This document shows, in pieces, positions 52,425-56,919 of a stretch of DNA of 64,000 nt. Positions within the stretch are counted from its first letter, which is position 1. The number at the start of each line of letters is the position of its first letter. The stretch comes from Armatimonadota bacterium. GTDB taxonomy: Bacteria > Armatimonadota > Fimbriimonadia > Fimbriimonadales > Fimbriimonadaceae. The notes beneath the pieces were generated by a model. It searched no databases and was not told the origin of the DNA. It saw nothing but the letters and a program-made list of their open reading frames with translations. The stretch covers positions 1 through 64,000 of the forward strand of contig JAFDWR010000001.1 of the NCBI GenBank assembly GCA_018268355.1. The letters run 5' to 3'. Position numbers and translations under genes: made by a program.

Positions 52425-53567
52425 GTGGAACTGGTACTTCACGGCGTCGCGGGACCCTATGCTGGCCGCTCGGCTCAGTTAACGCAACCTGAGATTGTGA
52501 TCGGGCGCGATCCTTCCAGTAACATCCCGCTCAACGACCCACAACTCAGTCGGATGCACGCCAAGCTGTTCATCCCGGGCGGTCGCTGGCACCTCGCCGA
52601 CCTCGGGTCCACGAATGGCACTTTTCTCAATGGCTCAAAGATCGGAGCGGCTCCAGTCCCGATCTCGGACGGCGCCGTCCTGAATATCGGCGGCAGCTCC
52701 TTCCGTATCGAGTTGCGGGGCGCCGTCGCTGCGACGATCCTTCCGCCTTCGCCGCCGAGCATGGCGCCGATTCCGCCGCCCGTCTACACACCTCCCGCGA
52801 AACGGCCGTGGGGCAGGGCACTCCAAGAGGCGCTATCGGTCTATGAGAAGGGCATACGAGACGTCATGCGGGACGGTGTCATCACCCAAGCGGAAGCGGC
52901 CGACCTCAAACGCGTCCAGGACAGGCTCGGTCTGACCGACGCCGACACGCTGGAAATGCGCGCCTCGGCCTTTATCAGCCTGAGCGACATGGCGATCCAG
53001 CAGGACAGGCCCGACCTGCAGGACGCCAACAACCACCTCCTCGATTCGCTAGGCCTGGCGGGATTGGGGCATCCTGGCGTTGTCGCCGCCTGCACCCGCG
53101 CACTCGCGCATGAATATCTATCGCTCATCCGCCAGGGCCAGATGCCGATCTGCGGCGACTCCGCCCTGAACCTTGCGGACGGTGAGGTCTCCCATGTCGA
53201 GCTCGGCGCGGCACTGCTCGAGGAGCGCGTCGTGAATTCGGGATGGGTTGGAGGCAACACGGGTGTTAGCTTCAGGGTCGCCAAGGGAGTGAGGTTCCAC
53301 GTCGGCGGCACGCGCGGCCGCAGGGTAAGCGAGCGAGCGGTCGTTCCTGTGAGCCACGGACTGCTTGCAATCACCAACCATCGGATCGCATTCCTCGGCA
53401 ACCCGAAGTCCTTCGAGGCGAAGTGGAGCAGGGTGATGGGCGTCGAGCCCTTCGGCGACGGCCTTACGGTGTTCATCGCCAACCGCGCCAAAGCGCCGAC
53501 GGTGCAGTACGTGCAGCCTGAGCTGGCGGAGGTCGTCGCCGCGATCTGTTCAGCGTACATTTCCTGA
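52425..53567 (+). CDS. FHA-domain protein with C-terminal PH-like domain
   Basis: The 380-residue product has an N-terminal FHA domain (IGRDPSSNIPLND, SRMHAKLF, DLGSTNGTFLNG) that binds phosphothreonine. A Pro-rich linker (about 108-128) and a helical region follow (YEKGIRDVMRDGVITQAEAADL). The C-terminal domain resembles bacterial PH/GRAM-like domains (VSHGLLAITNHRIAFLGNPKSFEAKW). It probably links Ser/Thr phosphorylation to membrane or protein binding. The GTG start is six bases after GAGAAT, so the mRNA is probably leaderless. Confidence 0.85.
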   Translation: MELVLHGVAGPYAGRSAQLTQPEIVIGRDPSSNIPLNDPQLSRMHAKLFIPGGRWHLADLGSTNGTFLNGSKIGAAPVPISDGAVLNIGGSSFRIELRGAVAATILPPSPPSMAPIPPPVYTPPAKRPWGRALQEALSVYEKGIRDVMRDGVITQAEAADLKRVQDRLGLTDADTLEMRASAFISLSDMAIQQDRPDLQDANNHLLDSLGLAGLGHPGVVAACTRALAHEYLSLIRQGQMPICGDSALNLADGEVSHVELGAALLEERVVNSGWVGGNTGVSFRVAKGVRFHVGGTRGRRVSERAVVPVSHGLLAITNHRIAFLGNPKSFEAKWSRVMGVEPFGDGLTVFIANRAKAPTVQYVQPELAEVVAAICSAYIS

Positions 53568-54297
53568 AAGATCGCATCGCCTCCAAGGTCGGCCTGCTCT
53601 CTGGCACGCAACCCGTCGACGACGGCCTTCGACGCCATGTCGGAAGCGTCGCGGACGTGTAACCAACAGAAGACCGAAGCCGATTGCTGTACTCGTCTCG
53701 GCGGCGCGTCCCGCCAAGCGAGGCGAGGGTTTGGCTCGGGCGGGCGCGAGTCGCCTGCCCCAGAGCACGCCTCGTCGCCACCCTTTTCGCCTGGGCATAA
53801 GACGGCCGTGGTCCGGTGTCTGCTGGAAGCCGCTCGGAACTTCTGTTCCCTGGTTTCGGAGAGATGCCTGCCCCCATCCCCCTGTCTCTGGGCGAAGGAG
53901 CGAAGCGACGAGGGCGAGGACGGGCGGAGACAGGGGGACATTGGCAGAATCAGGAGCCGCCTGCCCCATAGCACGCCTTTGCACATTGACTAGCCCGGGG
54001 ACAGCCTGCCCCATAGCTCGCTTTAGCCCACTGACCATCTCGGGGACAGCGGGCAGAGACAGGGGGCCGCCTGCCCCATAGCACGCCTTAGCCCACGGAC
54101 CAACTCGGGGACAGCGGGCGGAGACAGGGGGATCAGCAAAACCAGAGAGACCTCAACCACCTACCCACTCCCCAAAAAGGGAAAAAGAAAACCCTCACAA
54201 CCGTCTTCAGCTTTCACTTTCCCCCGTTATGATCAGCAAATCCCTTTCCGACGATTCATAGAGATGCCTACCCAAAAAGTGGCATCAGGGGAAAGGA
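53568..54297. repeat. Gene-free region with imperfect repeats
   Basis: No convincing gene lies in these 730 bases. CCTGCCCCATAGCACGCC-type units begin at 53960, 54005 and 54070, with a looser copy at 53755. Each is followed by CTCGGGGACAGCGGGC-like and GAGACAGGGGG-like blocks (also at about 53928). Spacings of 45 and 65 bases are irregular. The last 130 bases become A-rich and probably hold the pilC promoter. This may be a decayed gene or a repeat array. Confidence 0.6.
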
Positions 54298-55503
54298 ATG
54301 CCTCATTTTCAGTACACGGCTATCGATAGTTCAGGGCGAGTGGTCCGCGCCACGATGGAAGCGGACAACGAACAGCTTGTCTTTGCACGGTTGAGAGACC
54401 AGTCGCTTCACTGCACCGACATCAAGCGGGCAGGGAAGACGTCGTCGGGCACAAAGTTCGGCCAGAAGAAGATGAAGCCAAAGAGCCTCGTCGTCTTCTC
54501 GCGACAGTTCGCGACGATGATTGATGCGGGTATCCCGATTCTCCGTTGTCTTGATATTCTCGCTGGTCAGTGCAAAGAGCCCGCCCTCAAGGCCGCGCTC
54601 GAAGTGGTGACCCAAGATGTGAAGTCGGGTATGTCCCTCAACGAGGCCCTGACCAAGCATCCAGCCATCTTTAACAAGCTCTACGTCAACATGATCCGGG
54701 CGGCCGAACTGGGAGGCATCCTCGACCAGATTCTCGACCGGCTTGCCGGCTTCCTTGAATACGAAGCCGAGATCAAGGGCAAGATCAAGTCCGCGATGAT
54801 GTATCCCATCCTCGTCCTTGCCTTCTCCCAGATCATGCTCTTCGCCCTGTTCTCGTTCGTTCTTCCGAAGTTCAAAGAGATCTTCGTGGGCATGAACGTC
54901 CAGATGCCGCCGGTCACCGCCGCGCTCTTTGCTGCGGGTGACTTCATGAACAAGTTCTGGTGGGTCATCCTCCTGTTCCTGTTCGGCGCTTACATGGGCT
55001 TCAAGGCGTGGGCAAAGACCCCCAAGGGCAAGTTCCAAGTCGACTTTGTCAAGCTGCGCATCCCGATCGTGGGTGAGCTCACGCTCAAGATGAGCATTGC
55101 TCGCTTCTCGCGAACCTTCGGAACGCTGATCAACTCGGGCGTCCCGATGATGCGTTCGCTCGAAATCGTCGGCGAAACCCTTGGCAACAAGGTGCTTTCC
55201 CAGGCGATCGATACGACCCGGGCCAGCATCCGAGAGGGTAACAAGCTCAGCTCGCCGCTCATCCAGTCGGGACTGTTCCCGAACATGGTGACGACGATGA
55301 TCGACATCGGCGAAGAGTCGGGACGACTCTCCGAGATGCTGGTCAAGGTCGGCGACTTTTATGACCAAGAGGTCGAGACCACGGTGAAGGGCCTCACCTC
55401 GATGATCGAGCCGATGCTGATCATCTTCCTCGGTGTCGTGGTGGGCTTCATCGCCATCTCGATCATGACGCCGATCTTCAAGCTGGTGAACAGCGTGCAA
55501 TAA
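54298..55503 (+). CDS. Type IV pilus/type II secretion inner-membrane protein PilC (GspF family)
   Basis: The 401-residue product has the two repeated GspF domains (SLVVFSRQFATMIDAGIPILR and ISRFSRTFGTLINSGVPMMRS-type blocks) and membrane helices near 170-195, 220-240 and 370-395. It is the platform protein on which pilin or pseudopilin is assembled. The ATG follows GGGGAAAGGA. No pilB, pilT or pilin gene is adjacent, so it is separated from the rest of the machine. The sigma factor gene follows by about 150 bases. Confidence 0.92.
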   Translation: MPHFQYTAIDSSGRVVRATMEADNEQLVFARLRDQSLHCTDIKRAGKTSSGTKFGQKKMKPKSLVVFSRQFATMIDAGIPILRCLDILAGQCKEPALKAALEVVTQDVKSGMSLNEALTKHPAIFNKLYVNMIRAAELGGILDQILDRLAGFLEYEAEIKGKIKSAMMYPILVLAFSQIMLFALFSFVLPKFKEIFVGMNVQMPPVTAALFAAGDFMNKFWWVILLFLFGAYMGFKAWAKTPKGKFQVDFVKLRIPIVGELTLKMSIARFSRTFGTLINSGVPMMRSLEIVGETLGNKVLSQAIDTTRASIREGNKLSSPLIQSGLFPNMVTTMIDIGEESGRLSEMLVKVGDFYDQEVETTVKGLTSMIEPMLIIFLGVVVGFIAISIMTPIFKLVNSVQ

Positions 55504-55552: not shown

Positions 55553-55653
55553 AAAAGAGCCCCCAGTGATTGTTTTTTCGGCCGGAAGCAGGAAGCAGAA
55601 GGCCCCGATTGAACGGAACCGCAAGGATCGTGGTTCCGAATGGAGTCAAAGGA

Positions 55654-56919
55654 TTGAACCAGAACGAGATTTCGCAAGTTCAGCAGGATGCTGAAAACCT
55701 TGTCGCCAGGTACTTGGAGAACCCGCGTCCCGATCTGAAGGACGTCATCATGGTCCAATACTCGGGCCTGGTCGAGAGGATCGCGCGCCGATTCAGCGGT
55801 ATCGAACCGTTTGAAGACCTGGTCCAGGTCGGCTACATCGGACTCCTTAACGCCCTGACCAAGTTTGATCCCAAGGCCGGCGTCCGCTTTAACACCTATG
55901 CGACCTATTTGATCGCGGGTGAAATGAAGCACTACCTCCGCGACCGATCCCAGACGATTCGCCATCCAGCTTGGCTCCAGGAGCTTCGCCACAAGGTCAC
56001 CAAGGCCGCGAACATGCTCCAACAGGACCTGCAGCGCACCCCGACCGAGCGCGAAATCGCCGAAGCCGTCGGCGTGAGCGAAGCGGCGGTCCGGGAGGTC
56101 TTCCAGACCCAAGAGATGCTGAAGGTCATGTCTCTCGATGGCGCTCCCGCCAACTCGGACGACGCCGACACCGACGCTGAAAAGCTGGATTCGGCCCAGT
56201 TCTGCCCCGAGCAGCTTTCGGTGGAAGATCGAATGGTCCTCACGACGGCGATGAAGCAGCTTCGCGACCTCGAGCGACAGGTCCTCGTGCTGTTCCACTT
56301 CCAGTCGATGAACCAGACCGAGATCGCCCAGCGACTCAACATCAGCTGCAACTACGTGAGCCACATCCTGCGCCAATCGCTCGCCAAGCTGCGCAAGATC
56401 CTCACCGTCGAAGAGGCCCGCGACCGCGCCCTTCGCCAGCAGCTCGTGAACGACACCGACGTGATGGACGCCCAGACCGGCGCCTATTCGGAAACTTACT
56501 TCAAGTCGCGACTCGAAGAAGAGATCCACCGCGCTCATGCCGAAGAGGGTTCGGTTGCCGTCGTCCTTGTCCAGTTCAAGGGCCTCGACCAGCTTCGCCG
56601 TTTCTATGGTGAGCAGAGTGTGATCGACTTCTTCGCCGATGCGAGCGAGTACCTGCGCACCAACGTGCGCCGACTCGATATCGTCGCCCGCTATGGCAAG
56701 GATGGCTTCGGCGTGATTCTGCCGTCGATTGGTCAGAGCGTTGAACTCGTCCGCGACCGACTGCTCAAGAAGCTCGACGATTGGATTCACCAGCGCTATG
56801 GCAAGCAGGGCTCGGCCTTCGCCGAAGTGGGAACCGCGATGGCCCCGATTCATGGTCGGAATGCCAGCGAACTCCTCGCGGCGGTGAAGCTCGAGCGACG
56901 CGACGGCAAGGCTGCCTAA
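55654..56919 (+). CDS. Sigma-70 family factor fused to a degenerate GGDEF domain
   Basis: The product combines a sigma factor and a cyclic-di-GMP-type domain. Sigma part (421-residue numbering): region 2 FEDLVQVGYIGLLNALTKFDP (53-73) with FNTYATYLIAGEMKHYLRD; region 3 TPTEREIAEAVGVSEAAV; region 4 QLRDLERQVLVLFHF and QTEIAQRLNISCNYVSHILRQ. This layout is that of SigB/SigF/FliA-like factors. Residues about 272-415 have the GGDEF fold (TGAYSETYFKSRLEEEI, GEQSVIDFFADASEYLRTNV), but the catalytic motif is GKDGF (348-352). An RxxD motif, RRLD (339-342), stands five residues before it, as in the c-di-GMP-binding inhibitory site. The start is uncertain; a TTG after GGAG is used, and the frame is open to 55570. 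Confidence 0.88.
   Translation: MNQNEISQVQQDAENLVARYLENPRPDLKDVIMVQYSGLVERIARRFSGIEPFEDLVQVGYIGLLNALTKFDPKAGVRFNTYATYLIAGEMKHYLRDRSQTIRHPAWLQELRHKVTKAANMLQQDLQRTPTEREIAEAVGVSEAAVREVFQTQEMLKVMSLDGAPANSDDADTDAEKLDSAQFCPEQLSVEDRMVLTTAMKQLRDLERQVLVLFHFQSMNQTEIAQRLNISCNYVSHILRQSLAKLRKILTVEEARDRALRQQLVNDTDVMDAQTGAYSETYFKSRLEEEIHRAHAEEGSVAVVLVQFKGLDQLRRFYGEQSVIDFFADASEYLRTNVRRLDIVARYGKDGFGVILPSIGQSVELVRDRLLKKLDDWIHQRYGKQGSAFAEVGTAMAPIHGRNASELLAAVKLERRDGKAA

Follow-up and report, generated by a model that had tools for sequence, protein, structure and literature searches.

A sigma factor fused to a degenerate GGDEF domain in Armatimonadota: a candidate c-di-GMP receptor with links to type IV pili

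Structure of the locus

The window analysed here (the whole stretch of DNA under study, 64,000 nucleotides long) belongs to a 2.7-Mb, Fimbriimonadaceae-type genome of the phylum Armatimonadota. It carries an open reading frame of 421 codons, without internal stop, in which a group 3 sigma factor is followed by a GGDEF domain (Table 1). Same-length orthologues mostly start with ATG or GTG. Four Pfam domains are detected above cut-off: sigma-70 region 2 at aa 35-99 (6e-15), region 3 at aa 110-154 (1e-11), region 4 at aa 199-248 (6e-13) and GGDEF at aa 271-410 (9e-19; 68.2 bits for a gathering cut-off of 23.8). The single unbroken frame joining sigma regions 2-4 to a GGDEF fold, on which the original prediction was built, is therefore confirmed.

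Table 1. Features of the sigma-GGDEF locus (positions in the window)
Feature	Position	Strand	Remarks
Weak match TTCCGACGATTC to the sigma28-like -10 CCGACAAT of relatives' pilC	54246..54257	+
pilC promoter form, CCTGGGGA-N16-CCGACAAT
pilC (T2SSF family), upstream neighbour	54298..55503	+	PF00482 E 4e-64
Stem-loop cggaaccgc-AAGGATC-gtggttccg in mRNA leader	55614..55638	+	GGA in loop, CsrA-type
Sigma-GGDEF fusion gene	55654..56919	+	421 aa, TTG start, TAA stop
Sigma-70 group 3 (SigB/SigF-type) regions 2-4, aa 29-250	55738..56403	+	TIGR02980; strongly conserved
Predicted continuous helix, aa 232-264, sigma region 4 to GGDEF	56347..56445	+	AlphaFold2 model
Degenerate GGDEF domain, aa 269-410	56458..56883	+	PF00990 E 9e-19; PleD Z 18.6
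R293, secondary I-site arginine	56530..56532	+	PleD R313; 134/135 orthologues
RRLD, I-site RxxD, aa 339-342 (R339, D342)	56668..56679	+	PleD R359/D362, PelD R367/D370
GKDGF replacing GG(D/E)EF, aa 348-352	56695..56709	+	98 different 5-mers in 135 orthologues
R369, third I-site residue	56758..56760	+	PleD R390, PelD R402; 130/135 orthologues
C-terminal Ala-Ala, probable ClpXP degron	56911..56916	+	123/135 orthologues

The protein is a member of the sigma-70 family (TIGR02937, 101.7 bits for a cut-off of 42.9). Its top subfamily is TIGR02980 (SigBFG; 182.9 bits, E 7e-54), with a score that lies below the cut-off of 234.35, as do the 174-183 bits of three distant orthologues, and the second NCBIfam match of the sigma part, cyanobacterial SigF (PRK07408), reaches 170 bits for a cut-off of 261. 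The sigma part is thus near SigB/F/G, but is no curated member of these subfamilies. No standalone RsbW-type anti-sigma factor was found in the fusion-bearing genome G000, in which HATPase_c_2 matches occur only in frames of 423-905 aa, of histidine-kinase-like length, and in no small standalone protein; by this test, the fusion does not belong to an RsbW-partnered SigB/SigF system.

The AlphaFold2 model (mean pLDDT 86.6) is confident within domains, while its pTM of 0.43 makes the relative orientation of the sigma and GGDEF parts unreliable. When the whole model is submitted to Foldseek, the top PDB rows are sigma chains with a large rmsd, because of domain orientation. Residues 265-419 superimpose on PleD-c-di-GMP structures with an rmsd of 2.7-2.9 A over 149-150 aligned residues, which confirms the GGDEF fold in the model.

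Distribution of the fusion

Full-length orthologues are present in 73 of the 85 genomes of the family, a few being cut at contig ends, and as a single copy in each of 97 of the 113 genomes of the class. At the level of the phylum, about 190 of 291 genomes yield strong full-length scores (E < 1e-62), with many families outside the class represented among them. A low-sensitivity peptide scan of genome contigs returned Armatimonadota records only, and no report of such a fusion was found in open-access full texts, a search that leaves subscription papers aside. We fetched and aligned 137 orthologues, and analysed the 135 covering the GGDEF region, 40 of which come from outside the class.

The fusion is vertically conserved across Armatimonadota. 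As the same fusion is found in genomes of many families, the frame is real; an artefact joining two genes, a danger that the original prediction had itself pointed out, is ruled out by the identical fusion in the 135 aligned orthologues, and the domain order that it proposed to look for in related genomes is the rule in the class. In one genome (G077, locus L078), a stop just ahead of the I-site interrupts the fusion gene, through either mutation or sequencing error.

A decayed active site and a conserved I-site

Orthologues were mapped onto PleD, the sequence of which was checked against PDB 1w25 and 2wb4. An intact GG(D/E)EF motif is found in none of the 135 orthologues, the PleD catalytic positions D327, N335, D344, E370 and E371 drift among them, and the end of the GGDEF domain is shortened. 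R339 and D342 are each conserved in 135 of 135 orthologues, so that RxxD is invariant, and in the window exactly five residues (IVARY) separate D342 from GKDGF. With the motif lost everywhere, such constancy is well outside what chance would give, and a lack of RxxD conservation, which the original prediction had named as a refutation, is clearly ruled out. R369 and R293 are conserved almost as strictly (Table 1); the latter is equivalent to PleD R313, which is part of the secondary I-site in PleD structures.

Ordinary GGDEF domains show the reverse pattern. Among 23 such domains of the family, catalytic residues are near-invariant (E371 in 23, D327 in 22), whereas the I-site is less well kept (R359 in 17, R390 in 15 and R313 in 10). 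With a binding site kept and an active site drifting in the fusion, and the reverse in other GGDEF domains, it appears that selection retained the I-site and released the active site. However, active GGDEF domains of these genomes often keep RxxD too, so the pattern of the fusion is partly inherited.

Retained cyclase activity is ruled out, as the catalytic ligands are variable, and with GKDGF in the window and no intact motif among its orthologues the fusion does not qualify as an active diguanylate cyclase. The original prediction, which held that GKDGF would abolish cyclase activity and that RRLD stands five residues ahead of it as an I-site, is strongly supported by this conservation. By its sequence, the domain falls within the PelD/PopA class of degenerate GGDEF receptors, which have lost the motif and kept both RxxD and the third arginine. 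In PelD, c-di-GMP binding is no longer detectable once any one of the three corresponding residues is mutated (PMC7112168). On these sequence grounds, the GGDEF domain of the fusion very probably binds c-di-GMP.

An Ala-Ala terminus

Two features, the C-terminal Ala-Ala and the link with pilC and type IV pili, had escaped the original prediction. Ala-Ala ends 123 of the 135 fusion orthologues, versus 9 (1.5%) of 609 other long ORFs from the same loci, while the dozen residues preceding it are unconserved. The genome's own tmRNA tag, ANNNYAYAA, ends in YAA, and the fusion therefore carries the Ala-Ala of an ssrA-type degron as it occurs in the host tag. In the AlphaFold2 model, the terminal residues form a disordered tail straight after the GGDEF domain. 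The orphan sigma-AntA of Streptomyces is degraded by ClpXP via an Ala-Ala conserved in 67 of 71 orthologues (PMC7142297). ClpXP degradation of the sigma-GGDEF protein thus seems probable, and the conserved terminus suggests that control operates, at least in part, on sigma abundance through proteolysis by ClpXP.

These observations bear on an alternative in which control would be proteolytic: the GGDEF domain would mainly govern Ala-Ala exposure, and c-di-GMP would set the amount of sigma factor via ClpXP instead of its contact with RNA polymerase. Such a protein would resemble PopA and its substrate in one chain, PopA being an RxxD receptor that acts in CtrA degradation (PMC10333796). Although the conservation of Ala-Ala, the position of the disordered tail, the tmRNA tag and the sigma-AntA precedent are all in its favor, the tail might promote turnover constitutively, independently of any ligand, and Ala-Ala is lost from a few orthologues that keep RxxD (L081, L085, L225, L226, L228 and L230). 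We regard this alternative as possible, if somewhat doubtful.

Co-occurrence with other GGDEF proteins

Fifteen of the 291 genomes have no GGDEF match, and a full fusion is found in none of them, versus about two thirds of all 291. A genome devoid of GGDEF domains can hardly carry the fusion, so that the informative observation is the reverse one: every fusion genome seen possesses additional, better-scoring GGDEF domains. The 15 genomes are distributed among about nine family-level lineages, including one large clade, and their losses are thus only partly independent. In one genus (g6, nine genomes), the fusion has been lost together with its pilC, and in four of these genomes no GGDEF domain is detectable, an apparent complete loss of diguanylate cyclases.

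Control of the sigma factor by c-di-GMP is probable. The idea of a one-protein switch, put forward in the original prediction, is strongly supported: there is a single gene, without a standalone RsbW-type anti-sigma factor, and it is absent from genomes that lack other GGDEF proteins. Taken as a whole, the reading given in the original prediction is supported in part.

An RLEEEhHRA-type helix (window 56509-56532; R286, E289, E290, R293) matches the I-site in its invariance. Three of its residues, R286, E289 and E290, are not known to have an I-site role, and may form a sigma or dimer interface. An alternative to c-di-GMP sensing via R339, D342 and R369 would rest on these three residues, as they vary hardly more than the I-site while located outside it, and as the GGDEF domain of RmdB binds sigma-WhiG (PMC13232838). 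This is unlikely, however, because the exact PelD/PleD three-residue set and R313 are kept while other functional GGDEF residues drift, and because the fusion is absent from genomes without other GGDEF proteins. Finally, GTP binding can persist in degenerate GGDEF domains, but sensing of GTP or another nucleotide at the old active site is highly improbable here, since the metal and GTP contacts (D327, N335, D344, E370 and K442) all vary and the domain is cut short at its end.

Link with pilC and candidate regulon

A pilC-like gene lies directly upstream of the fusion, on the same strand, at 93 of 123 loci, this adjacency being absent in several families (f12, f13, f14 and f19). Deep relatives have PilT/PilB-type ATPases beyond pilC, and pseudopilin genes are sometimes found downstream. 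Within the family, an orthologue of the cognate pilC (64-81% identity) is present in 67 of the 73 fusion genomes (counting four in which the match is a contig fragment) versus none of the 12 fusion-less genomes, three of which are incomplete assemblies and the rest mostly members of one genus. Four genomes (G059, G060, G066 and G068) keep the fusion without a pilC orthologue. Fusion-less genomes keep other T2SSF/PilC paralogues; a loss of all pili as the cause of fusion loss is ruled out, as only the cognate pilC is missing. In the window, imperfect direct repeats of about 65 and 25 nt (CCGCCTGCCCCATAGCACGCCT) occupy positions 53748-54132, upstream of pilC, and an FHA-domain protein is encoded two genes upstream of the fusion (52425-53567), with no homologue found close to the fusion among the relatives retrieved.

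The motif CCGA[CGT]AAT precedes pilC at 45% of 69 loci, versus 1.2% of shuffles and 3.7% of the regions before other ORFs, and resembles the sigma28 -10 element GCCGATAA. At many pilC loci, a CCTgrGGA element is found 16 nt upstream of it. With one mismatch, the bipartite motif CCTgrGGA-N16-CCGACAAT has 31 matches in the 85 genomes versus 4 for the reversed pattern. The genes following these matches (loci L258-L287) encode PilC, a type IV pilin, an HD-GYP protein and CheC, as well as sugar transferases (in three genomes), a flagellar rod protein and sensor kinases; in the genome of the window, one of them is the RpoN gene. At E 1e-20, sigma matches in genome G000 are limited to the fusion and a single weaker one, which is probably RpoD. 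As there are only two, the fusion would be the natural owner of the CCTgrGGA-N16-CCGACAAT promoters, and it is fairly likely that it serves a pilus/surface regulon.

The mRNA leader of the fusion suggests a further level of control. Perfect-stem hairpins with GGA in the loop occur in 38% of 92 pilC-fusion leaders versus 0.9% of 432 control leaders, an enrichment of CsrA-type hairpins of about 40-fold, and their number per leader is 0.41, versus 0.0065 after shuffling. CsrA is encoded by 82 of the 85 family genomes and, given these hairpins, may bind the fusion leader.

A model for the sigma-GGDEF protein

Our preferred model, which we hold to be rather likely, is that of a sigma factor for pilus and surface genes that is gated by c-di-GMP and tuned by proteolysis. 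The C-terminal GGDEF domain of a group 3 sigma factor would have lost cyclase activity and become a c-di-GMP receptor, the ligand docking at R339, D342 and R369. The conservation of R293 suggests that an intercalated c-di-GMP dimer, as in PleD, might form a bridge with another GGDEF domain. As the GGDEF domain and sigma region 4 are connected by one predicted helix, ligand binding would alter the availability of the sigma factor or the exposure of its tail; it would thus change the joining of sigma and RNA polymerase, the access of ClpXP to the disordered Ala-Ala tail, or both. The regulon would comprise type IV pilus and surface-behaviour genes with CCTgrGGA-N16-CCGACAAT promoters, including the fusion's own pilC operon, and CsrA would also control the fusion mRNA. 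Whether the model extends to a class of sigma factors acting as second-messenger receptors throughout the phylum, with activity and ClpXP lifetime set by c-di-GMP and CsrA acting on the mRNA, seems to us evenly balanced.

The closest parallels are partial. Like the fusion, PelD and PopA combine a dead GG(D/E)EF motif with a conserved RxxD and third arginine, but these domains are attached to membrane and GAF domains in PelD and to REC-REC domains in PopA, instead of a sigma factor. In the sigma-WhiG/RsiG system of Streptomyces, c-di-GMP directly controls a group 3 sigma factor, as proposed here, but is bound by the separate anti-sigma RsiG, whereas the GGDEF domain of the fusion is inside the sigma chain. 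By analogy with this system, high c-di-GMP might restrain the sigma factor, a direction of effect that we hold only weakly. Sigma-AntA shares with the fusion the lack of a partner anti-sigma and a conserved Ala-Ala, but is an ECF sigma factor with neither a GGDEF domain nor a second messenger.

To our knowledge, c-di-GMP has been connected to sigma factors only by way of separate proteins. A c-di-GMP pocket within the sigma factor itself would, if true, be the shortest route from signal to promoter choice, a single protein directly tying a lifestyle signal to gene choice, probably that of surface pili. Thanks to the compactness of the fusion, a single purified protein suffices to address the ligand, the activity of the sigma factor and its degradation, and the fusion provides a first testable regulator of pilus and surface behaviour in the poorly studied Armatimonadota. 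As for cyanobacterial SigF, the second-best match, its PRK07408 model has no GGDEF domain and a cut-off that the fusion does not reach; the major pilin gene, pilA1, is among the regulon genes transcribed by the RNAP-SigF holoenzyme (PMC8546353).
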